64,000 nucleotides of DNA from Arctopsyche grandis (taxonomy: Eukaryota > Arthropoda > Insecta > Trichoptera > Hydropsychidae), in contig NC_135355.1 of assembly GCF_051622035.1 (NCBI RefSeq), positions 5,940,001 to 6,004,000 on the forward strand, written 5' to 3'. A model generated the notes under the pieces. That model searched no databases and was not told the DNA's origin. It worked only from the letters and a program-made list of their open reading frames with translations. Below are positions 3,490 to 62,803 of this stretch, piece after piece (position 1 is the stretch's first letter; the number at the start of each line of letters is the position of its first letter). The position numbers were made by a program, and so were the translations under genes.

Positions 3490-3795
3490 GCTGTAGTGTT
3501 GACTTTACTGAAAGATAATGTTATTCCATTAGTGTTTAAATATGAAATCAGGAATATGGCCGTGTCTGGTTTAAATAAAGCGAAATCTAGAAGTACAATT
3601 TTCAACCACTTTTTCGAGTAGCTGGGGCCGTATATCAGCAATAACGCGGCGAAGGCTTCCAAGTCGTCCATCGTCTCTGGTTTATAGGCGTAGACTAGCG
3701 ACTTCACATATCCCCACAGAATATAATCCATTTTTTTTAATCACATGATCCTGGAGGCCAATTCACTACCGTTAAATAGTAGCGCACGGTAAGTT
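3490..3795 (-). pseudogene. Mariner/IS630-type DDE transposase C-terminal remnant
   Basis: On the minus strand the frame from 3731 reads MDYILWGYVKSLVYAYKPET, matching the conserved 'D-L-T-P-x-D-Y-F-L-W-G-Y-x-K-S' block around the last catalytic acid of mariner/IS630 superfamily transposases. Sequence just upstream (about 3735-3790) continues the homology in another frame. Downstream residues decay through frameshifts. Only the C-terminal quarter is recognisable and no inverted repeat was found, so this is a dead fragment. Confidence 0.65.
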
Positions 3796-6180: not shown

Positions 6181-6189
6181 TTCGTTTAA

Positions 6190-7300
6190 GAGGGCTGGAC
6201 ACCAGCGCCTTGTCCATACAAACGTACTATACTTCTCCCTTCCTCAATTATGGCACCAGAGAAATTATTTTTATGATATGTAATGAGTTGATGAATGATT
6301 CGTTGATTCGTCGATAACGTAGGTTGGGGCTATCTATCTCTTACATCATAATGTAACCCTGACACATGGTAAGGATCTTTCAAATCTCTCAAATTCGAAG
6401 TTGACGAATTGATTTTAATTTTTTCCATCTTTCGACTTTCCATTAAGAGGGCTAGACACCAGCGCCTTGTCCATACAAACGTACTATACTTCTCCCTTCC
6501 TCAATTATGGCACCAGAGAAATTATTTTTATGATATGTAATGAGTTGATGAATGATTCGTTGATTCGTCGTTAACGTAGGTTGGGGCTATCTATCTCTTA
6601 CATCATAATGTAACCCTGACACATGGTAAGGATCTTTCAAATCTCTCAAATTCGAAGTTGACGAATTGATTTTAATTTTTTCCATCTTTCGACTTTCCAT
6701 TAAGAGGGCTAGACACCAGCGCCTTGTCCATACAAACGTACTATACTTCTCCCTTCCTCAATTATGGCACCAGAGAAATTATTTTTATGATATGTAATGA
6801 GTTGATGAATGATTCGTTGATTCGTCGATAACGTAGGTTGGGGCTATCTATCTCTTACATCATAATGTAACCCTGACACATGGTAAGGATCTTTCAAATC
6901 TCTCAAATTCGAAGTTGACGAATTGATTTTAATTTTTTCCATCTTTCGACTTTCCATTAAGAGGGCTAGACACCAGCGCCTTGTCCATACAAACGTACTA
7001 TACTTCTCCCTTCCTCAATTATGGCACCAGAGAAATTATTTTTATGATATGTAATGAGTTGATGAATGATTCGTTGATTCGTCGTTAACGTAGGTTGGGG
7101 TTATCTATCTCTTACATCATAATGTAACCCTGACATATGGTAAGGATCTTTCAAATCTCTCAAATTCGAGTTGACGAATTGATTTTAATTTTTTCCATCT
7201 TTCGACTTTCCATTAAGAGGGCTGGACACCAGCGCCTTGTCCATACAAACGTACTATACTTCTCCCTTCCAAAATTATGGCACCAGAGAAATTATTTTTT
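6190..7300 (+). repeat. 257-bp tandem satellite array, about 4.3 units
   Basis: Units begin with GAGGGCT(A/G)GACACCAGCGCC at 6190, 6447, 6704, 6961 and 7217, giving spacings of 257, 257, 257 and 256 bases. Adjacent units differ by only a few bases (for example GTCGATAACG versus GTCGTTAACG, alternating between units). The fifth unit is truncated after about 75 bases. An inverted diverged copy sits at 147-225. No coding potential. Confidence 0.95.
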
Positions 7301-7637
7301 ACTATGCGATGGATATCCACCATTGGGGTGCATCTATCGTTTTATTTTTTTGATTAATTATTTTTTATAGGAGCTAGAAGCCGCCAAACATATATAAAAT
7401 CGCCTCTTTTTTACACCCACGAAAAGAGTCCAGCATGCTTATTTAACGGTCGATTTAAAAAAAAATACGCCAATAGTTGCACAGAAAATATCTTTCTCAT
7501 ACCGCTGATGAATTTTTTTTAAAATTGGTCCAGTTTTGGAGGAGAAAATAGGAGAATACGAAACCTCGATTTTGTCGATTTAAAATACGTATTATCTGGT
7601 GGAAGCGCGACTGTCGCATTCACTCAATATATAAAAA

Positions 7638-7834
7638 TATATCATGTTTTCTTAAAACTCTACGATTTTCCGGGGCCCAGAATTTTAGTTTCTCCAGGAT
7701 AGCGGGATTGTGAATCTCTCCTCTAAGTAATTTTACGAAATTTTACGAAATGTTTCCCAAGAAATAAATCTCTTCTCTTTGCCAGGGAGTTGAAACCCAA
7801 AGATCCAAAGACAAAGGCACTAGGGAACAGATAT

Positions 7835-7923
<89 letters not shown>

Positions 7924-8046
7924 GAATCTCTCCTCTAAGTAATTTTACGAAATTTTACGAAATGTTTCCCAAGAAATAAATCTCTTCTCTTTGCCAGGGA
8001 GTTGAAACCCAAAGATCCAAAGACAAAGGCACTAGGGAACAGATAT

Positions 8047-8116
<70 letters not shown>

Positions 8117-8318
8117 ATATCTGTTCCCTAGTGCCTTTGTCTTTGGATCTTTGGGTTTCAACTCCCTGGCAAAGAGAAGAGATTTATTTCTTGGGAAACA
8201 TTTCGTAAAATTTCGTAAAATTACTTAGAGGAGAGATTCACAATCCCGCTATCCTGGAGAAACTAAAATTCTGGGCCCCGGAAAATCGTAGAGTTTTAAG
8301 AAAACATGATATATTTTT
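7638..8318. repeat. Large palindromic repeat with (TA)n cores, from LINE sequence
   Basis: A left arm (about 7638-7858) runs into a (TA)n tract. A second direct copy of its inner part restarts at 7921 and enters another (TA)n tract at about 8048. From about 8113 to 8318 the same sequence returns as reverse complement. For example TGTGAATCTCTCCTCTAAG at 7921 pairs with CTTAGAGGAGAGATTCACA near 8225. The mirrored arms give identical peptides on both strands, which is an artefact of symmetry. The right arm is colinear with LINE coding sequence that continues to 8461. Confidence 0.9.
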
Positions 8319-8672
8319 GCCAATTAGGGCTAAATCAAACGTGCTCATGAACTCCCCCCTCTCGAGAGCTGTTCGACTCCTTAACTTACTGGCACATTAC
8401 TTGGACCTATTCGATGCCAGTTATGTTGAGTTGGTGGAACACATCCTAAATAGCACGATATAAATTTTTCAATCTTATTTCTTTGTTTTTATTTTGTGTA
8501 CATATTTTTTACTTGATTTTTATTATTTTTTTATGATGTTTTTTTTGTAATTTTTATGATTTTTATTATTTGTATTATAATCACATTGACGCTTTGGGGC
8601 AACCTGTCAAGTCTCTGTGGTATTGATTTTTTTAAATAAAATAAAATAAAAAAAAATAAAAAATAAATTAAA

Positions 8673-10626: not shown

Positions 10627-11060
10627 ATACATACTATAGCCAGCAGCATAGCTCGGACGTTAAGCTTCTGCTTACCGTCAAGAAGGTGCCGGGTTCTATC
10701 CCTGAATGAAAATGAATTTTTCAGAGTATGCTGTTGGTCAGACCTGGATTTGTGACTCCAGGTTGATCGTTTCCTATCAGAGTTTGCCAATTTTCTCTGA
10801 TTTCATTGTTGAAACGGTTCCCGGAAAAAAAAAATTGGCTAAAAATCCTTCCTACCTACTATGTCACCACTATTTGAAATTTGATGGATGTACAATAAAA
10901 ATTTATGTACAATTCATAGATGTCTCGTTAATTTGCGAGTTTTTTCAGTGTCTCGCAATTCAACGACTTATAATAAAAAATGCTGCATTTGTATTTGTAA
11001 TTGGCCAGGAAGGCGCATTGGGATTTACCTGTAAGGCCTTCCTGGTATATATGTAAAATA
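10627..11060 (+). mobile_element. tRNA-derived SINE, full length
   Basis: The head has a tRNA-like B box (GGTTCTATCCC near 10692) and an A-box-like TAGCTCGGACG. The body carries the family signature GACCTGGATTTGTGACTCCA and TCGTTTCCTATCAGAGTTTG, then GAAACGGTTCC. The 3' end is a perfect 10-bp hairpin, CCAGGAAGGC at 11005 with GCCTTCCTGG ending at 11045, followed by an A-rich tail. About ten related copies occur in the window on both strands. It would be transcribed by RNA polymerase III and moved by a partner LINE. Confidence 0.85.
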
Positions 11061-15805: not shown

Positions 15806-16165
15806 ATACCAGGAAGGCCTACCAGGTAAACCCCAATGCGCGTTCCTAGCCAATTATTACATAATCACTGAATTTCGAAATGCCGAAGAGCACGAAATTA
15901 ACTATTAATGAATCCATAGACAATCCAACTATTAATTAATACATATTGTACATAAATCATATTCAAATATTGGTGACATAGTGGGTAGGATGGTTGTTGC
16001 CGATTTGATGGAGGAACCGTTTCAACAATGAAATCAGATAAATTGGCAAACTCTGATAGGAAACGATCGACTTGTAGTCACAAATATCCAAGTCTGACCA
16101 GCAGCATTAAAGATTAGCACGGGATGGAACCCGGTAACCTTTTGGTGTTTAACATAAACACAACC
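15806..16165 (-). mobile_element. tRNA-derived SINE, near full length, minus strand
   Basis: The hairpin 3' end (CCAGGAAGGCCTACC at 15809) is at the low-coordinate side. The body GGAAACGATCGACTTGTAGT and tRNA head with GGGATGGAACCCGGTAACC follow to about 16160. The stem here has decayed on one side (GTTCCTAG). Confidence 0.8.
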
Positions 16166-21800: not shown

Positions 21801-24800
21801 TAATTTTACTGAGGGCCCATATTTTCCAACAGATAGTGGGGCCCACATGCCATCGGGCATGTTCGCTTGTATGGCCAGTCCGCCACTGCATACATATATA
21901 ATCTTGCGTCATCATTTGAAATAAAGACTCGAGATCATCTTATGAGTGACGAAATTAGAAAAATCTTTTCGAAAGATTCAAGATCTCATTCAAGCATTTT
22001 TTTTGCAGGTTACGACAGTAATGGATATATTCGCAAAGGATGGTGATACAGGCAATCCGAGACCAATTTTGATCACTATTGAAGGTGACTCTCTCGGTTA
22101 TTTCAATCTGGTCACTACGAAAGGAAGTGGAGAAGCAAAATTGATTACTTCGTTTATTCCATTGGATCGAGAGCATCCAAGTGTGTTACAGAATGGAGGA
22201 GTTTACAGCTTTTTCGTTAAAGTATGGATTGCAAATAATTTATATTACATACGATCTTATTATGTAACATTTTAATCGTTTATTATTTTTTTTTTAGGCG
22301 ACTGAACTCATAGATAACGATGAACCTTCAGACTATTCTGTCACTCAAGTTACCATTGTGATAACAGACACAGACGATCACAAGCCAGAGTTCAATGAGA
22401 AAGAGTTCAACGTATCGATTCCAGAAAACATTGAAGTCGGTACTCCAATCCCAGGTCTATCAGTCTACGTAGAAGACAACGATCTGAATGTTAATAGCAG
22501 ATACAATTTAACATTGAGACACGTGCTCAATTCTGAAAACGTATTCACCGTTAGTCCAGCCTATGGTGAAGGAAGAACACCGCTAGCAATTAAAGTTAAC
22601 GATGCTTCCAAACTTGACTACGATGTTGACGATGACTCCAAACGATCTCTAAGCTTTGACATCGTAGCTCTAGTCAACGATCAAGAAGTATCTAGCACTC
22701 GAGTCAATATAAAATTATTAGATACCAACGATAACCCTCCCATATTCGAAAAGGAGGATTATAAACTGAACGTGCTTGAAGATGTTGAAGATGGATTTAA
22801 GATATCAGATCTGAAAGCTAAGGATAAAGACTCTGGAGCTTTCGGTAAATTAGAATACGTACTGACTGGATTCGGTTCTGACCACTTTAAGACGGAAAAA
22901 AATGAAGGGGGCGTCTACGTTAAAGGACCGTTAGACTTTGAGAAGCAAAAGAGTTACAGTTTGACTATGGTAGCCAAAGATGGCGGAGGAAAAGTATCAA
23001 CGGTGAACGTTTTCGTTGAAGTACAAGACGTCAATGATAATGCCCCTGCTTTCGATATAGCTGAATACTCCAGAACTATCAGGGATGGTGCTACTAGTTT
23101 TGAACCACAACTTGTCGTAAGAGTGAGTAAAATCATCACATTATACTAACATTAAATTGATGAATTTTATTTCAAACTATCGCATATTTCAGGCGACTGA
23201 TAGGGATGGTCCTGATCAAGGTGGAGGAAGCATTGTATACTCCATAGAATCAGATAATAGCATTTCAAATAGTGGAAATGTGTTTACCATAGATCCAATC
23301 TCAGGAGAGATCAAAATTTTGAGTTCAGTTGATTCAATGGATACTCCTAGAGGACAATATGAGCTCACAGTTAGAGCTACAGATAAAGGTTTGTTTATTT
23401 GAAATTTCTTTTCTAAAAAAACTTTTTTGGCTATTGTTAAAGTTGACTATACTTTTAGGTTATCCACCATTACATAACGACACTCGGGTGTTTATAAGAG
23501 TGGGTGTTCCTGGGAATCAGAGACCAATATTTAAAGGAAATTATAATAGTTTTGTATCTCCGAAGAATCGAAACGAAGATTTTGGAATAACAGACTTCAA
23601 TTATGATTTTGGTCCTATGAACTACAAAGCATCAATAAGTGAAAACTCTCCAGCTGGAACCAATGTAACTACAGTTATAGCCAATGATCCCGATGGCTTG
23701 GACCATCTGTTAACTTATCATTTAGCAGGTGGTGCTAAAGATAACTTCATAATCAACGAGAAGTCAGGTTTGATTACAATATCTCCAGAAGCAAACCTAG
23801 ATCTTGACACAAATCCAGATCATTACGACGTGATAGTGACAGCTGTCGACAGTGGCTCTCCAGTACCAGAAACAGCAACTACTACAGTATTTATAACAGT
23901 CGATGATGTTAATGATAAAGCACCATTCTTCAACCTATCCAGCACATCAGCTTACGTTTCGGAACGAGCCAAAATTGGAAAACCCGTCTTTAAAGTCACA
24001 GCTATGGACACAGACTTGGATTCAGATCTTAAGTATTCAATAATCGAACCTATCAAAGCTTTCTCTAAATCTGGAGTTCAGCTCAAATCCACAGCTCCTT
24101 ACAACTACAAAACAGCCTTCAGGATAGATGAGAAGAGTGGAGAAATTTTCGTAAATAATACATTAGATTATAACTTAGCTTCTATAGTATTGCTTTCGAT
24201 CAAAGCTGAGGATTTGAAAGCCGTGTATAACAAAGACAAGCAATTCGCTGTGGTGGAGTTGACACTCTATATTCAATCTTTCACTGATAACACCCCTCAG
24301 TTTACAAACGAAGGATGGACTTCAACAAATCCAAGAATTTCTGTTGACGTCGATGAGGAGGAACCAATTGGAAGTACACTTTTCGTTTTGACTGCAGAAG
24401 ATCCTATCTCAGGTCACACCGTCACCAATTTTAAAGTAATCAACTCTGAGACGGATCTGCTGCAGGTAGATCCTCAAACTGGACAAGTTCTACTAACCAA
24501 AAGACTGGACTATGAAGCCTTGGCTAGCCCCAATTTAACATTTACCGTAAAAGCTACGAGCAATGATGGCAGCAAGTATAGCACTGCTGAAGTAAATGTT
24601 AAGGTGCGAAACATCAACGACAATGCACCAGAATTTAGTGTAAAAATATACAAAACCAGCGTTCCTGAATCGTCCAAGTTTCCAAATCAAATTTTAAATG
24701 TTAAAGCTACTGATATGGACGCTACCCTCACAGAAACCGATCGAGAATTGGGATATTCTGATATCAGATACTCTTTGGGTGGTCAAAACTCTAATCTCTT

Positions 24801-27800
24801 TGTCATTGATGAAATCACAGGAGTCATCCAGGTATTTTGAATTTATTTTTTCTTGAAAATTTCTTCTTTTTCTATTCTAATTTATGTTGACGAATCTTAG
24901 GTTGCACCAAACAAAACATTAGATAGGGAGAGACAATCTGTATTGCGATTGGACATAGGAGCAACAGATTCTCCTAATGGATCAGGAGTATCCCAACAGA
25001 GGACCACAATTCCTCTTATAATTGATGTCCTTGATGTAAATGATAATCCTCCAACTTTTCAATACACGACTTATATGGGTAATTTTTTATTATATTATTT
25101 AAAGCCATACTTCTACTCCATACTTCTTCTATATTTAAATGTATCTGTTTAATTTAGCTGTTGTTCCTGAGAATGTCCCTGTTGGAAGAAGCGTAGTAAA
25201 CATTTCAGCTACAGATCCTGATGAAGGTTTAGGTGGAGAAATTAAGTATGAATTCATAGATGAAGGTGAAGGAAACGGTGAGTGTTTCAATAAGACCTTT
25301 TTTACTACTTATTATAGAAGCACTTGCAACTAGAAACAAGGCTCTACGATTTCGTGAAATTTAGGTCTATTCCAAATCAATCTTCTAACTGGTGAAATTA
25401 AAACCAAGAAAACGTTGGCTGGAAAAGGGAGAGCTGATCCTTATTTGTTGAGACTTCGAGGTACCGATGGTGGAGGACTTCACGGAGATACAGAACTGTC
25501 GTTGTACATAGGAGACGTTAGCTCTAATGATGGTGTACCACTTTTCATCAAACCAACTTTGGATCAAGTGGCTATGATCAGCGAAGTGAGTCCGTTTTAC
25601 AATAAAAAAATATCCTTAAAATTGAACATTGTTAAAAGTTTACATATATTTTTAGAATGCCACAGTTGGATCTTCAGTATTTCAAGTGGTCGCTAGTGAT
25701 CCTGACGATCCTTCCTTGCCTTCGGGAAGACTGCAATATCGAATCCAAGACTCTGGCCCTGATTCTAAAGTCTTCAAAATAGGCAAGCGTTCACAAAACC
25801 TAGTTATGTATGTCTCTGTAACTAATATTGAATCAGTTACTCAGTGTTTTATTTTACGATGTTTAGATATAAATTCTGGTCTGATTACAACGAGCAAATC
25901 ACTAGACAGGGAGAAGAAATCTAGTTATGAATTGATCTTGGTTGTATCTGATAGAGGTGATCCACCACAAACAGTCACAAGAGTGTTACAAGTGAACATA
26001 ACCGATATTGACGATCATAAACCCAGATTTATCAGAGCATTGGTACTTGCGTTTCATTATTCTGGAATCATAAGTTTTAACAATATTTTAATTGCAATAT
26101 TTTTTGTTGTCAAAGGATGACCCACCAATAGTGTTCAACACTGAAGAAGAACAACCGATAGGAACTGTAATCGGAGAAGTTGCAGCTTTAGACGAAGACA
26201 TTGGAGATAATGGAGCTATTGATTACATTTTCATATGTAAGATTTTATAAATAATCACACTTTCGTTGAATGAAGTGGTTGTATGTATGTGTAATTTATT
26301 TTATCAATTCCAGCCGGAAACGAGCTAGGACTCTTCAGTATCAAAAGAACCGACGATAACAAAGCGAAGATTACGTTGGAAGATCGTTTGGACAGAGAAG
26401 TGTCCTCACACTATTTACTCACAGTAAAATGCTTTAGGAAAGATTTACGGCCGAGTCAATTGGAAAATAAGCCTTATAATCGACTCGTAAGTATGATAAG
26501 GAAGTGGGAGCTAATATTGACAAAAGCTCAAACCAAATTTATTTAGGATATTTAATACCAATAGAAAACTATTGCGGGAGTTGACTCAAACTATTGATAG
26601 ATATTTCCATCTGCTCTCACGTCGACTTTCATTTATTAAATTCACACGTAACATCTATAGCAATATATCAAACATTGCTTGGAAGATGTATCTTTGGATC
26701 TTATAGAACTTGTGCAAACTCATAGACATGAGTTTAGAGTTTGACTGAAAGGAGAATGCCTTGTCTATAACTTGTGACAAAATAGTGACGTTTCTCACCA
26801 ATCTCAATTTTTTGATTTTACAGAATCCGGCCGAGGCTCAAGTGCTTGTAAAAGTCCTGGACGTCGACGATCATTTGCCAGAATTTGATGGAGGCAATGT
26901 AACTCTCGGAGTGAGACTCAACGCACGTGCCGGCACTGCACTGTTGCAAGTGCACGCTCGCGATTCAGATGCAAGTGCTCCTGCACCACAATACTATCTC
27001 GAAAATGTTGATTTTACATCTCCTTTAGCCACCATCAGAACTTCAAACAACACTGCCGTGTTCGCCGTTGATAAAGAGACAGGCCAAGTCACTTCACTGA
27101 AAAGCTTGGTGCATTTTGTCGATGGACACTTCACGTAAGTCGCTATTGCCAATCAGATTGTTAACACTTGTCGCACTGTGATGGATAGCGAGTGGCCAGG
27201 ACGTATATTTTATTTTATATCTCCAAATATACTGAATGTAGGGTCTTCATATTTTATGTATTCCTCGTCAAAACCTCTATGATTCGAATTATAATATTAC
27301 GAATTAAAAACATTTATCAATATCAACAGAAATAATTATTTTCGCGGTAAGTCCCTTGTACAACTGGGTGCTACTTTAGTATGCGGTCTACCTAAGCATG
27401 CGATCTACCTTTGGATCGCAGTTGACTATTATTTTTTATTTGTATCATAGCAACGACCTGTTTGGTATAATTTATAAAAGTTTTTTTCTGCCACCCCATA
27501 ATATTGTCGAAGCATTTCTATCAAAATATCGTCAGCAGCAAAGAATATAACGACCCTAATAACCTAATCTTAAATGAATCGGGCCAATCCTAACTTAATC
27601 TAACCTAACCTAACCCTTAAATAAATGGGTGTTTCATCAATATTTTCACAAAAAAACATATCTTAGCATCCAACACCTATTTATTTAAGGGTCACGTTAG
27701 GTTAGGTTAAGTTAGGGTTGGCCCTATTCATTTAAGATTAGGTTGTTAGGGTCGGTATTGTTCAGTCTCACTGACACACGCGAAAATTGAGACAGTGAGA

Positions 27801-35839: not shown

Positions 35840-35912
35840 AATTATAATATTATTTATTTAAAGTTTGGACCATTGTGGGATCACAGGACTTTCTAATGCG
35901 CCACAATGGTCG
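35840..35912 (-). mobile_element. Retroposon 3' hairpin tail, minus strand
   Basis: CCATTGTGG (35870) and CCACAATGG (to 35909) form a perfect 9-bp stem. On the minus strand the loop GCGCATTAGAAAGTCCTGTG resembles the loop of the SINE hairpin at 11005, and the tail TCCAAACTTTAAATAAATAA resembles that at 46554. Only the 3' end of the element remains. Confidence 0.6.
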
Positions 35913-37953: not shown

Positions 37954-38008
37954 TAACATATACACACATCTTACTCTATTCAACCACATATGTATGTATA
38001 TTAACCAA

Positions 38009-38490
38009 CAGCGTGATCTAGTGGCGAGTATTGAATTATTTCGTGTTTGATGTCACGGGTTCGATTCCCACTAAGAGTCTCGTTGTTGGCCAGACCTTGG
38101 TTGGTCAAGGTCGACCGTTTTTATTGAAACGGTTCCTGTAAAATTGGCTTTTCCTTCCAAATTTTCTGTTGCAAACCTTGAGTTATTGTTAGGTTTCGGC
38201 AGATTTCTCACCATAGATATCTCTGTGGTTCTTTATCGAATGTAAAAATTCGTATTGTTACATGAAAAATGTTATTAATCGTATTTATACGATGTGTGTA
38301 ATATGTGATCACAGATGTCAGGTATTGTTTCGATTAACATGTGTATGTATGTAATAATTATCTATTACCTAATAATTATCTAAATAGATGTCTCAATGTC
38401 AAGTTTTCAATGTCTTGTAATAAATTAGCCATAGTGACGACCTGGAGCTAATCTGTAATGTCACTATGGCGAAATTGTAAAAAATAAATA
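38009..38490 (+). mobile_element. tRNA-derived SINE with variant hairpin 3' end
   Basis: B box GGTTCGATTCC at 38058-38068; body TTGGCCAGACCTTGGTTGG; 3' end a perfect 10-bp hairpin CCATAGTGAC (38429) / GTCACTATGG (to 38469), followed by an A-rich tail. The stem sequence differs from that of the 10627 copy. Confidence 0.8.
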
Positions 38491-39360: not shown

Positions 39361-40016
39361 GAAAATGAACACGGACTTTGCGTATCACTAGAGTATTAGA
39401 CGGAATCATCTAACAAGTTAAAAATTACAAATAATATAGAATATTATTATATTTTCAAAATAATTTTTGATTACATTTACATAGAACAATTTTTTTTCAA
39501 ATTTATTGTAATTTTTTTATGAAAAAATCTATGCTTAAAAAAGTTTTTTTTTTCATTGCATAAAATAATCATTTTAATTTTATGCTGGAAAATAAATAAT
39601 TATGTGCATCTTTAAAATATGTTTATCGCGTATTAATTTTTTGATTTAACTCTATAAAGTATTTGTATTTAATCTGCTTTAGGTTCAACTCTAATATGTT
39701 TTAAGTCACCTACATACGTATACTATTTTTTTTTTCTTTTTAAATAAAAAAAAATACAAATAAGGGAAATAAAGGGGAGTGAGTTCTGATTTTAAATACG
39801 ATTTTGATTTGGTGTGACGTGCTCGTGCTCGGTCATGGTACGGTGACTACGCACAAGTACCAGACACCTGTTCAAAAGTTAATTACTTACTACTAAAACA
39901 CACCCCCTCGGTTTATATGTTTGTTCAACGGGAAAAATAGCGTGACGATTACTATACTGGACACCTGGAACATTTCGTCTTTGATTTACAACTATTACGT
40001 TTCGTTTCAGGTAACC

Positions 40017-41426
40017 ATGTCGTGCTACAGCAGCCTCGAAGACTACTCATTGGACATCAACGACAGCATCTGCTCTTCAGACTCGGGACTGGAGAGGAGC
40101 TATCAAGATCTAACTTATTCAAAATCGCCCAAAGTGAATAAATCTCTCGACTGTTCCGACTATGGAATATCTTTAAATCAAACCCCAATCAAAAACAGAA
40201 TTCTCAACGAGGAATATGCAGCGTTGGCGTCTCCAGCACCTTCGGACATACCGATGAGCTCGTTCATCTCGGAGCTGAACGACGCCAATGGAAAGACTTC
40301 CACGCCGAAGAAGAATGCCAAAGTTAAAGACAAAGATCCGAACAGGCCTAAAAGAAAATATGCGCACGGTAAAAATAGAGTTACGAGATCCAGAAGTCCC
40401 ACCCAGGTTTTGAGGATAAAGCGCACGAGGAGAATGAAAGCCAACGACAGGGAACGGAATAGGATGCACATGTTGAACGAAGCTCTGGATAAGTTGAGAA
40501 GAGTCCTGCCGACATTTCCCGAAGATAATAAATTAACCAAAATAGAAACTCTGCGTTTCGCACACAACTACATATTTGCGTTGAGTCAAACCTTGGACTC
40601 GTTGGAAAACATTGACTCGGATCTACTTCCCGGACAAGGGCTTTCTCTCAACTATGAAAAACTTCAAAACTATTCACTTTCTGGAGAGAAGATCACCAAG
40701 GACACTTTTAGAGAAATGTTTTTATTGCCTGTAGGGAAATGCGGAGCTTTCGACCAATACTCGAATACAGACTATGCAGGCTGTGAATATCAAAGAAGTC
40801 CATTTCCGAACGGTGCCAATTTCTGCCAAACGTCTGAAGGAGTCCTCGTCAACGTGGGCAACGTCACAGTGTCCATAAACAACAGTGGTGGAAATAGCAT
40901 ATCTTCAACTACAGGAAGTGGATATACAGCAAATCCGAGAATATTATGCGACGAAATAGAATTGCAAAAGTTCAGATGTCAGGATCCATTCGAGAGGCCG
41001 AAGGAGTTCAAGAATCAAATTATCAACGATGATCCTTTCGCAATGCCAGACGTCTATAATGCCGAAGCCAAACACCAGTACAAAGACCTCCACAATCCGA
41101 ACTTCTCTAGGCAAAACTATGAAATATTCAAAGGTGCTTTCGAGACTGCCAGAAATGCTGGTAAATCTACATACAGTGCCAACCACACTTACGATCCTTC
41201 CCAGACGAGCGTTTTTGACTCTCCGAGTGGTGGATATCCTTCACAATACAATTACAACTCTCCATATCCTAATTATGACACCACGTATGTGGGAAACGTG
41301 AGCAATACTACGTCGTACTTCAACAGCGAAAAGTCCAGAAACACTTTCAATCAAGATTATAAGCAGAGCGGATTCAGAGATCATCAATTTAAAAGCATGG
41401 CAATTTGTCCCAACTTCAGCAACTGA
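40017..41426 (+). CDS. tap: Neurogenin-family bHLH transcription factor tap (biparous)
   Basis: A single coding exon of 469 aa. The bHLH domain is at about residues 138-193: basic region [20 protein letters not shown], loop [10 protein letters not shown], helix 2 [29 protein letters not shown] is typical of neurogenins and insect tap rather than atonal or NeuroD. E-box contacting Glu and Arg of the basic region (ERNR) are present. Flanks are low-complexity: Ser/Asn-rich before, and Tyr/Asn/Ser-rich at the C-terminus, plausible activation regions. It should bind CANNTG sites as a heterodimer with Daughterless in the nucleus and act in neural development, as tap does in Drosophila. I place the start at 40017 (ACCATGT), just after a splice acceptor; an open extension to 39921 lies in the intron. 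Odd: Met replaces the usual Asn in NRMHNLN. The 3' UTR carries two MITEs. Confidence 0.93.
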
Positions 41427-44199: not shown

Positions 44200-46500
44200 T
44201 GATAAGTCATGTTTTTGACTGTTCGCTTGCATATTCTTGTTGATCGATGAATCAATGCGAGAGAAAGATACAGCTATATTTTCTTAAGCTATTGTTTTCG
44301 TCGCTTTTGGTGCGTGGCTAGTGCGTCATGCAGTCGCCTGTTGGCCTTCCCTATGTACGTTTGCATGTCGATGTTTGTCGTTATATTTTAATACAAAAAT
44401 TGTCAAAAACATGCTATAGGACTAAAACTTTTTTTTATATTGTATAAAATGATTAATAACATCTATTGAACATATTTGTATCGAGAAAAGGTGTATTTTG
44501 ATTAAAAAATATTAGGGTCTTACTCGACCCCAGTTCGGGATACTCGTTCGATCTCGACGCTCCGTCCTTCAAAGGTTAGAGCAACTAACATGGAGACTTG
44601 TTTTAGGTTCTTCAAAGACGAATTCATAAAACTAAAGTAATACATTGGAATTTGGCTTCAAATTAGTATGAATTGAGATCAGTTATGTTTAATATGAATC
44701 ATCACCCAATAACAAAGCGGAATTTAATCCAAATAAACATCGCATTCGATTTCGACGATATATTTTTTTGTTCACTTTATCAGATGCCAGTTCTGTATCA
44801 GGTGTCGGATTATCCCGAAATAAATTCGCAACCCAGCGTAATATTACCCCAATCGACAATGGGGTCCCAAAACGGTAGCCTCATTGTTAAACATACATAC
44901 ATACATATAGGTATGTGTTGAGATTTCAGGGATAGCATAGCCTGGGGCCTAACAGCCGTCATAATCCATCGGGTTCGCTCCATTCATCGGATTCGATCCG
45001 CTTGTTAGTCCGTTTGTACCCAGGACTCCCCTGCTTCATCTCGACCGGCTCTAATGTACATTGCAAATATTCACCGCAAACATCGCTTTTATTATTTATT
45101 TGTTTGCCCGCTCCATTTTTGACGGTGCACCCCCCGGTGGGAGTGATGGCTAATTTTCTGGCACTGGAAGATATACATAGCTCATAACAAAATCCATGTA
45201 CATTTGGATTTTTTTAAATTCTGTCAATTTTTACAAGGTTTTTTTATTATATATTACAAGGTTTTTATTAGTTTCACTTCATCAATTGGTGTGACACTGA
45301 CTACACTCTTCCGATCGCTTTGAAACTTTGCCATTTTGCGAGGTTTGGCCGCCGATAGAGATTCTAATTGAATTAAACTCACCATAAGTCGATGGTGAAA
45401 TATAATCCTAATAAACACCGTCTCCAAAAACTTTGGAGACGGTGACAGCTAACCCATTGGCAATAGCCAGTAGCCTTGTTTGTTTGACTTTCCAGCCCCC
45501 ACTCGTTTTGTCAGATTTTAATTGTTAAAACGCCCATAACTTTACCATTTTCACGCTACATCTTATAAAATTTGCATTATAAACTCTCATTATCTCTGAC
45601 ATATTTTTACTTCACTAATAAGTTATATAATGAATACTAAAAATACGTTTTAGTAAAATTGAAATGGCCGATGCGGTGTTTGTTCTTTGGCCAAGGCGGT
45701 CTCGCTGCTTGTTTGACGTCTCTCTTTTCGATCTCTTCTATCTTTGATTTCAAATCTCTGATTTCGACTATTTGGATTGATTTTGGACTAAGGGTGTCTC
45801 TTCTTTGGACTAAGTTAACTTTTGATTATACTAGATTTTTTATGTCTTAATACTTTTCAAATTCACTTTCCAATATGGTTGTGTTGTTATTATTTTTTAC
45901 TCTACTTCAATAAAATTGTTGACATCTACTGCTGCCATACTATCGCATTTTTACGATTATAATTTACAGTAAGAACTATAAAATATTAATAGATGGTCTT
46001 CTCCAATTCTCCGTCACATATAAATTAGTCCAAAGTCCAAGATCAATTTTGACAGCCAAAGGAAAAATGAGTCATGATTTAAATTTGTTTCTAAGCTGTA
46101 CATAAAATGCAATATTAAAATGGCGAGTCACACCAAGGATGAAACTTTTGCCAATAAAAGTCAAAAATGGAATACTGATTTTAGCGGATATTGGATATTG
46201 GTCCTTCTCAGATTATGTGCGTGGTCGACATCATAATTTAATGATTGTAACTCCTGCCTGCACAGTCCTTTATCGGATGACTCCTATATCAAGAGCTAAC
46301 TAACTTCTTAATGAAATCATTGCTGCCGTGCTTGAATGTGAGTTTCCCGCTCAGTGAGCGTAGGTTATCAATTATTATATTAACCTATTTGTCTGGTAGC
46401 CTGCGCTCAGCATTATTTTCATAATTGATGTGATGTATGAGTGGAGTTGTGAACTTCTATCTTCCATTTTGACCTCGGGGAGATGTTTTATTTACCGTTT
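44200..46500. other. Intergenic DNA, no gene recognised
   Basis: Short frames (for example 45002-45187 and 45659-45850) have no recognisable domain. The one notable structure is a perfect 13-bp hairpin at 45416-45444, reported separately. Confidence 0.4.
45416..45444. other. Perfect 13-bp stem hairpin
   Basis: CACCGTCTCCAAA, loop AAC, TTTGGAGACGGTG. No A-rich tail or inverted-repeat transposon ends are adjacent. Confidence 0.6.
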
Positions 46501-46512
46501 TTCTTATCCAAG

Positions 46513-46585
46513 CCATTGTGGTGCATTAAGTTCTTCCTGAAATGCCACAATGGTCCAAAACTATAAATAAATGTAATATTGTTTG
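46513..46585 (+). mobile_element. Retroposon 3' hairpin tail, plus strand
   Basis: CCATTGTGG (46513) and CCACAATGG (to 46553) form a perfect 9-bp stem around loop TGCATTAAGTTCTTCCTGAA. The tail TCCAAAACTATAAATAAATG follows. It matches the inverted copy at 35840-35912. Confidence 0.6.
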
Positions 46586-48709: not shown

Positions 48710-49160
48710 GCAATTGAATGATTTTATTTTACATAGATATATACCAGGAAAGCTTGACAGGAAGACCCCAATGCGCCTTCATGGACAATTAATTACAAAT
48801 AATGCAGCATTTTATTATTACATAAATCACTGCATTTCCAGAAGCTGAAGAACACGAAATAACAATTAATTAATTAATTAATTACAGAATTTATCCATAG
48901 AGACATGTATGGATATAGATTTTGTACATCATTTTTACAAATTATACACACAATAAATACAGAAGATTTGTGACAACAGGAAAGATGATTATTTTGCCAA
49001 TTTTGAGGAACCGATTCAACAATGATCAGATAAAATTGGCAAACTCTGATAAGAAACGATCACAAATACCCCCAAATCTAACCAGCAGTATGGCGGATCG
49101 AACCCACTGATCACTTGGTGCTAAACCTACACGCTACCATTAAGCCATGCTACTGGCTTA
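48660..49160 (-). mobile_element. tRNA-derived SINE, minus strand, after a (TA)n tract
   Basis: (TA)n at 48667-48700; SINE 3' hairpin region CCAGGAAAGCTTGACAGG from 48743; body GAAACGATCACAAATACC; tRNA head with GGATCGAACCCACTGATCAC and ACGCTACCATTAAGCCATGC near 49150. Closely related to the 58315 copy, indicating one subfamily. Confidence 0.85.
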
Positions 49161-58314: not shown

Positions 58315-58720
58315 TATACCACGAAGGCTTGACAGGAAGACCCCAATGCGCCTTCCTAGACAATTAATTATAAACAATGCAGCATTTTATTATAACATAA
58401 ATCACTGTATTTCCAGAAGCTGAAGAACATGAAATAACAATTAATTAATTAGTCCATTGAGACATCTACGGATTTAGATTTTGTACATAATTTTTAAAAA
58501 TTATACACACAATAAATACAGAAGATTTTTTCCAACAGGAAAGATGATTTTTTGCCAATTTTGAGGAACCGTTTCAACAATGATCACGTAAAATTGGCAA
58601 ACTCTGATAAGAAACGATCGACAAATACCCGCAAATCTAACCAGCAGTATGTGGGATCGAACCCACTGATCATTTGGTGTAAACATACACGCTACCATTA
58701 AGCCATACTGCTGACTAAAC
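58315..58720 (-). mobile_element. tRNA-derived SINE, minus strand
   Basis: Very similar to 48740-49160: hairpin region CCACGAAGGCTTGACAGG at 58319, body GAAACGATCGACAAATACC, head GGGATCGAACCCACTGATC and ACGCTACCATTAAGCCATAC. Confidence 0.85.
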
Positions 58721-61769: not shown

Positions 61770-61910
61770 AAGTCCAAAATGTTCAACGACAAAATGTACC
61801 CGAAAATTAGTGCACTGACAAAATGTACCCGCGACAAAATGTACCCGCGACAAAATGTACCCGCGACAAAATGTTTAAGCGACAAAATGTTCAAAAATGT
61901 TCAAAATGTT
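61770..61910. repeat. GACAAAATGTACCCGC minisatellite
   Basis: About seven imperfect copies of a 16-17 base unit (GCGACAAAATGTACCC), decaying into AAAATGTTC copies that abut the 197-bp array. Confidence 0.85.
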
Positions 61911-62803
61911 CAACCGTATCCAATATTTACGTATTTAAATTGAAAAAAAAACTTTCCGAGCGTATGAACTCCAGATTACATTGCATTAGTTTATATGGCA
62001 GGGCTTCTCAACCGTCTCCAAAATTTACTTTATTTCAAATGAATAATTTACTTTTTATCGTACACATCGCGGGCGTTATTAAATTAGTATAAATGACAGG
62101 GGTTCTCAACCGTATCCAATATTTACGTATTTAAATTGAAAAAAAAAACTTTCCGAGCGTATGAACTCCAGATTACATTGCATTAGTTTATATGGCAGGG
62201 CTTCTCAACCGTCTCCAAAATTTACTTTATTTCAAATGAATAATTTACTTTTTATCGTACACATCGCGGGCGTTATTAAATTAGTATAAATGACAGGGGT
62301 TCTCAACCGTATCCAATATTTACGTATTTAAATTGAAAAAAAAAACTTTCCGAGCGTATGAACTCCAGATTACATTGCATTAGTTTATATGGCAGGGCTT
62401 CTCAACCGTCTCCAAAATTTTCTTTATTTCAAATGAATAATTTACTTTTTATCGTACACATCGCGGGCGTTATTAAATTAGTATAAATGACAGGGGTTCT
62501 CAACCGTATCCAATATTTACGTATTTAAATTGAAAAAAAAAACTTTCCGAGCGTATGAACTCCAGATTACATTGCATTAGTTTATATGGCAGGGCTTCTC
62601 AACCGTCTCCAAAATTTTCTTTATTTCAAATGAATAATTTACTTTTTATCGTACACATCGCGGGCGTTATTAAATTAGTATAAATGTCAGGGGTTCTCAA
62701 CCGTATCCAATATTTTCTTATTTAAATTGAAAAAAAAAACTTTCTGAGCGTATGAACTGCAGATTACATTGCATTAGTTTATATGGCAGGGCTTTTCAAC
62801 CGT
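61911..62803 (+). repeat. 197-bp tandem satellite array, about 4.5 units
   Basis: Units start CAACCGTATCCAATATTT at 61911, 62107, 62304, 62501 and 62698 (spacings 196-197). Units differ by few bases (TTTACTTT/TTTTCTTT). Each unit includes two related TCTCAACCGT motifs, so it may itself derive from a diverged dimer. The last unit is cut at about 62803. Confidence 0.95.

Follow-up and report, generated by a model that had tools for sequence, protein, structure and literature searches.

A 3′-terminal hairpin with a covarying stem common to LINEs and tRNA-headed SINEs, a likely recognition element for retrotransposition

Analysis of a 64-kb window (the whole stretch of DNA studied; GC content 32.8%) and of the genomic copies of its repeats revealed a hairpin in LINE and SINE families, which is likely to be the 3′-terminal recognition element of related non-LTR retrotransposons and of tRNA-headed SINEs borrowing their machinery. 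The LINEs carrying the hairpin are C, D, F, and H, together with, probably, G, K, and E, and the SINEs are A, A2, and B. The families are predicted to share one RNA fold, the paired positions covary between families, LINEs C and D terminate in the hairpin, and its motif recurs in the SINEs.

The four hairpins named in the initial annotation (11005, 38429, 46513, and, inverted, 35870) were found both by direct reading and by scanning for hairpins that combine perfect 9-bp arms, a loop of 15–30 nt, and at least three G/C. The scan returned 14 overlapping matches at seven distinct places, including all four hairpins, and 0–6 matches in each of ten Markov-shuffled windows. With a covariance model of nine family representatives, the number rose to eight (Table 1). 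The initial set was thus incomplete, as the hairpins at 8581, 58319, 48744, and 15809 are of the same kind. The next four matches of the model were opposite-strand echoes of the same palindromes, and the first other match had an E-value of 0.28. When folded as single RNAs, the four named hairpins gave z-scores of −3.5 to −4.5; those at 8581 and 48744 were weak folders, little above shuffles. The perfect pairing claimed for the stems holds for the quoted arms (10, 10, and 9 bp) and fails for 8581–8620 and for three older SINE copies. The loops had been described as related, and one assignment had to be corrected: the second quoted loop, GCGCATTAGAAAGTCCTGTG, belongs to 35870–35909 on the minus strand and not to 38429, the loop of which is GACCTGGAGCTAATCTGTAAT, without a GCATT start. 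The loop is itself structured by a 4-bp inner helix. A search of Rfam at gathering thresholds gave no match, and the literature searched for such an element named none.

Table 1. Hairpins and associated element parts in the window, in order of position
Feature	Position	Strand	Details
LINE D ORF2, C-terminal end	8124..8460	+	frame break near 8200
LINE D 3′ hairpin	8581..8620	+	TCACATTGAC / loop with GCAA tetraloop / GTCTCTGTGG; 8/10 pairs; z −1.7
SINE A	10639..11053	+	tRNA-like head, B box at ~10692; A-rich tail on to ~11086
SINE A 3′ hairpin	11005..11045	+	CCAGGAAGGC / loop / GCCTTCCTGG; inner helix TGGG/CCTG; −22.0 kcal/mol, z −4.4
SINE A-like 3′ hairpin, decayed copy	15809..15849	−	covariance-model match
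Short LINE C-type tail hairpin, inverted	35870..35909	−	CCATTGTGGC / loop / CCCACAATGG; 9/10 pairs
SINE B body	38002..38475	+	B box GGTTCGATTCC at 38058; 5′ limit approximate
SINE B 3′ hairpin	38429..38469	+	CCATAGTGAC / loop / GTCACTATGG; z −4.5
LINE C ORF2 C-terminus remnant, upstream of hairpin	46175..46421	+	59% and 77% identical to LINE C protein (tblastn)
LINE C 3′ hairpin	46513..46553	+	CCATTGTGGT / loop / GCCACAATGG
SINE A2 3′ hairpin, decayed copy	48744..48784	−	covariance-model match; z −1.5
SINE A2 3′ hairpin	58319..58359	−	head is the tRNA-Val call at 58642–58712

The nine representatives, which exclude the decayed families E and L093, share a fold consisting of a 10-bp outer stem (8 of 10 pairs in the LINE D representative), a 4 × 4 internal loop, a 4-bp inner stem, and an apical loop of 4–5 nt, built on eight different stems. 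RNAalifold recovered the same structure unaided, and each representative alone folds to it or nearly so. The apical loop is GNAA in LINEs D, F, G, H, and K (GCAA or GTAA, and GAAA in three fetched copies), in keeping with the GNRA tetraloop pattern, and has five nucleotides in LINE C and the SINEs. The inner helix also varies with pairing kept, as seen in one double change in SINE B.

Covariation between the families was marked. Across the 126 cells formed by nine representatives and 14 pairs, 98.4% were paired, compared to 30–55% when the partners were slid. Double-sided changes with pairing kept were present at 7 of the 14 pairs (a number reached in 3 of 500 shuffles) and in 19 cells (reached in 0 of 500), and pair 4 occurred as four pair types. 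The covariation score, which like the permutation statistics ignores ancestry, was 0.530 against 0.060–0.125 with partners slid by 1–3 and a shuffle mean of 0.226, none of 500 shuffles being as high. The number of pair types was not above shuffles (14 versus 12.6; 133 of 500 as high). When the 5′ and 3′ arms were re-dealt between the nine families, the observed 88 of 90 pairs, against a mean of 70.7, were equaled in 2 of 200,000 deals; the corresponding figures were 78 of 80 pairs and 2 of 40,320 for the eight families without SINE A2, and 58 of 60 pairs and 1 of 720 for six families. Because families F, G, H, and K seem closely related, these counts overstate the number of independent events. 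The selection on RNA structure suggested in the initial annotation is supported by double-sided changes far above the slid-partner controls.

Pairing was also evaluated within families. All ten outer pairs are kept in 24 of 29 SINE A copies including the window copy (23 of 28 without it), in 17 of 20 genome copies of SINE B with wobble counted, in 25 of 30 LINE C tails, and in 29 of 30 LINE C copies with an ORF; the loci were top or exact-loop matches, which favors intact copies. Among the copies read, stems are not unpaired as often as paired, an outcome that the initial annotation had named as refuting its proposal. Old copies have decayed freely, in line with their being dead insertions.

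SINE A is abundant, its loop being found with at most two mismatches at 3596 + 3597 places in the genome, compared to none for the reversed control. Its genome copies are 97–99.7% identical (e.g., L004, L005, L017, and L021–L029). For SINE B, 989 candidate places were found, of which 40 were scored. The SINEs have tRNA-like heads with pol III boxes, evident from the B boxes of SINEs A and B and, for SINE A2, from a tRNA-Val call by ARAGORN. This call is the only tRNA called in the window, and it represents the SINE A2 head and not a tRNA gene. As candidate target-site duplications, repeats of at least 9 flank 6 of 23 SINE A copies, mostly as AT repeats, and were seen in 17 of 200 mismatched pairs. 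Internal T runs are present in SINE A (T5 and T6, 10717–10945) and SINE B (T5, 38118–38122); RNA polymerase III might be expected to terminate at such runs, yet long SINE A copies are common. In one SINE A2 copy (L103), pair 4 is changed on both sides from G-C to A-T and is still paired, possibly by chance as this is a single copy.

A search for LINEs sharing the stem-loop end had been suggested in the initial annotation, and two LINE families of the window end in it. With the LINE C protein as query, 11,944 candidates were found in the genome; the 150 scored were all 97–100% identical, many having a 989-aa open frame. A reverse transcriptase domain (RVT_1, E 9.9e-23) was identified in a LINE C piece with Pfam, which gave RVT_1 as the only domain on the part searched. 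At all 30 fetched loci, the hairpin lies downstream of the LINE C ORF on the same strand, at 344–359 nt from the stop codon in 27 copies and at 328, 268, and 100 nt in the remaining three; beyond the hairpin, a short linker leads to TAAA-type repeats. The two truncated retroposon tails of the initial annotation (46513 and 35870) could be identified as LINE C-type tails. LINE D, the protein of which is 43.7% identical to that of LINE C over 494 aligned positions, has open frames of up to 960 aa in its genome copies; 5609 candidate places were found and 150 were scored at 98–100% identity. It ends in the hairpin at 6 of 6 loci read, one of which (L124) is the window copy. All six retain a 2 × 2 mismatch in the outer stem and thus 8 of 10 pairs, which indicates that the stem need not be perfect. 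Adjoining the plus-strand LINE D end, minus-strand pieces resembling LINE D protein (67 and 79% identity) were noted at 7578–7975, within and beside a 212-bp tandem duplication (7707–8120). The window further contains two tandem arrays with 98% matches (6186–7299, 257-bp units, 4.3 copies; 61910–62803, 197-bp units, 4.5 copies), a cadherin-domain ORF (23329–24840), and an ORF for a bHLH protein (39921–41426).

The relation between the SINE and LINE tails was examined with a model derived solely from LINEs D, F, G, H, and K, of which LINE D is also present in the window. This model matched the window SINE hairpins with rough E-values of 2e-7 (58319), 3e-7 (11005), 4e-7 (38429), 5e-6 (48744), and 0.0018 (15809), and the LINE C hairpins with similarly rough values of 0.0013 (35870) and 0.0021 (46513). 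Opposite-strand echoes of the same palindromes aside, the next match had an E-value of 3.7. Recovery of the SINE hairpins by a LINE-only model places the SINE tails within the same motif. A search for places where the letters upstream of the SINE A hairpin were altered gave 229; the 100 listed, which look almost all SINE-like, included no LINE with the SINE A stem, and neither did the 45 A-type hairpins from fetched loci. Three of these 100 places share the non-SINE upstream sequence TACAATGTTTCT. Two of the three, L170 and L171, were fetched; both have SINE A-type hairpins, and they have about 40 nt in common upstream that are unlike SINE A and gave no ORF match. This upstream part could be the 3′ end of the missing LINE A.

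Further families were sought with a pattern that fixed the loop together with a portion of the 3′ arm and excluded LINE D. It matched 294 places, with several 3′ arms among the 100 listed. From these 100, 40 loci were picked for variety of the 3′ arm with the 5′ arm unseen, and the 5′ arms were predicted beforehand from pairing. Ten pairs of ten were found in 21 loci, nine in 8, eight in 5, seven in 5, and five in 1; hence, 29 of the 40 loci had 9–10 pairs. For six predicted 3′-arm classes, nine or ten pairs, wobble included, were formed in 21 of 31 loci, and the exact Watson-Crick 5′ arm was present in 5 of 31 (4 of 5 for GTCACAGCGG, 1 of 2 for GTCACACCGG, and none in the other four classes). 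In the worst class, GTCACAGTGG, at least nine pairs were present in 2 of 6 loci. The exact letters of the 5′ arm were less well predicted than its pairing because G-U pairs are common. At pairs 2–4, 105 of 120 cells were paired over all 40 loci, compared to 92.6 with the arms re-dealt (1 of 20,000 as high). Without seven rows in which the arm does not start with two pyrimidines and is probably truncated, the count was 94 of 99 against 80.7. Some of the low-pairing loci (e.g., L132 and L153) appear to begin inside the 5′ arm, with flanking DNA in its place.

At 12 of the 40 loci, including copies of F and H, the sequence just upstream matched the C-terminal peptide of an old LINE E copy (L035). 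The same peptide comparison gave no ORF match upstream of the G and K loci, which are probably LINEs, going by the resemblance of their upstream codons by eye. A pattern for other stems around the GCATT...CCTGTAA loop matched 108 places. By eye, nearly all of the 100 listed differ from the A or C stem by a single letter; one place (L093, C2:3183569) has a stem resembling that of B, in which 7 of the 10 positions pair.

Taken together, the hairpins fit the published pattern of LINE and SINE tails, and recognition by a LINE enzyme is therefore considered their best explanation. The RNA would form the outer stem, the internal loop, the inner stem of TGGG/CCTG type, and the apical loop. The inner part (internal loop, inner stem, and apical loop) is most likely read by the LINE ORF2 protein. 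The outer stem is most likely needed mainly as a helix, so that its letters would drift by compensatory and wobble changes. Target-primed reverse transcription would then start in the A-rich, TAAA-type tail just downstream. We infer from the published systems that the ORF2 protein binds the hairpin with loop and stem playing different parts, and that LINEs and SINEs would be paired through it. Such pairing may even be indifferent to the stem: one loop-reading lineage of the LINE C type, with its pentaloop, could mobilize several SINE families with little stem likeness to its own, pairs being sorted by the inner module (GNAA tetraloop or pentaloop, 4 × 4 internal loop) while the outer stems turn over freely. 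This extension is a tentative one and at present rather doubtful.

Explanations other than recognition by the LINE enzyme were also weighed. Being stable and terminal, the hairpin could serve another RNA step instead, such as 3′-end formation, protection from decay, or export. This is unlikely, since the letters of the inner stem and internal loop are common to LINEs and tRNA-headed SINEs, which are presumably transcribed by different polymerases, beyond what stability needs, and since the motif immediately precedes the tail, in which target-primed reverse transcription would be expected to begin. Considerably less probable is an origin of the matching arms at the DNA level, by arm-to-arm templating or conversion within a palindrome instead of selection on RNA. 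The perfect palindromic arms of families A, B, and C would suit such copying, but it would not leave the G-U pairs found in families F, H, and K, and neither the LINE D mismatch kept in 6 of 6 loci nor the decay of old copies agrees with it.

Hairpins are known near the 3′ ends of Helitrons, and the structure might on that ground be taken for a Helitron 3′ hairpin or for the inverted repeat of a DNA transposon. However, the elements that terminate in it have a reverse transcriptase ORF (RVT_1) and an A-rich tail, and some copies begin inside the hairpin in the manner of 5′-truncated LINEs, which makes this reading highly improbable. Nor is it credible that a few stems which happen to pair were simply handed down by descent. 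It is true that each family has one stem in all copies, so that copy number adds no evidence; at the level of families, however, 7 of 14 pairs are double-changed, and neither the covariation score (0 of 500 shuffles) nor the re-pairing of the arms (2 of 200,000) is readily reached by chance.

Recognition of a 3′ hairpin by the LINE enzyme has published precedents. The zebrafish elements ZfL2-1 and ZfL2-2, stringent-type LINEs of the L2 clade with bipartite tail recognition, likewise have a 3′-terminal stem-loop. In ZfL2-1, a loop swap cut retrotransposition dramatically and a stem swap kept about half of it, and a stem-breaking mutant of ZfL2-2 showed no retrotransposition (PMC4176376). There, the decisive loop and the partly replaceable stem helix were established by experiment, whereas the present likeness comes from sequence. 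In the eel pair UnaL2/UnaSINE1, too, a 3′ stem-loop is common to LINE and SINE; it contains a small internal loop, and the tail consists of short repeats (PMC5135761; PMC4176376). UnaL2 has a GGAUA loop, (TGTAA)n repeats, and a stem whose sequence matters, whereas the present hairpins have GNAA or a pentaloop, a TAAA-type tail, and stems that differ between SINEs and LINEs. Changes in the UnaL2 stem sequence are reported to cut mobility strongly (PMC4176376), which speaks against a freely variable stem.

The known tails are described as having an asymmetric internal loop or bulge 4–6 bp from the central loop (PMC5135761); the present internal loop lies 4 bp from the apical loop but is symmetric. 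The hairpin of plant L1 elements and monocot SINEs (Ohshima) is alike in its compensatory stem mutations, its conserved loop letters, and its occurrence in both LINEs and SINEs (PMC3747384). It belongs to the plant L1 clade, whereas the present one, in which the inner helix also varies, comes from an animal-type genome, probably that of an insect, with TTAGG telomeres, such repeats being found at 2 of 3 contig ends read. Among insects, the silkworm element SART1 (R1 clade) requires a 3′ UTR stem-loop for retrotransposition (PMC5135761; PMC3747384), and the Metulj SINE of Heliconius is, like the present SINEs, tRNA-derived, its LINE partner being reported as unidentified (PMC4016481); for both, the likeness is one of description.

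The stringent-type LINE/SINE 3′ tail is a kind of element already known from fish, silkworm, and plants, and the hairpin described here is a clear new example of it. In a single genome, a conserved inner module is combined with stems that vary naturally and by degrees, and two of the LINE families possess long, open ORF2 frames. With these at hand, the published idea that the loop is read and the stem is felt becomes directly testable, including the pairing of LINEs with SINEs.
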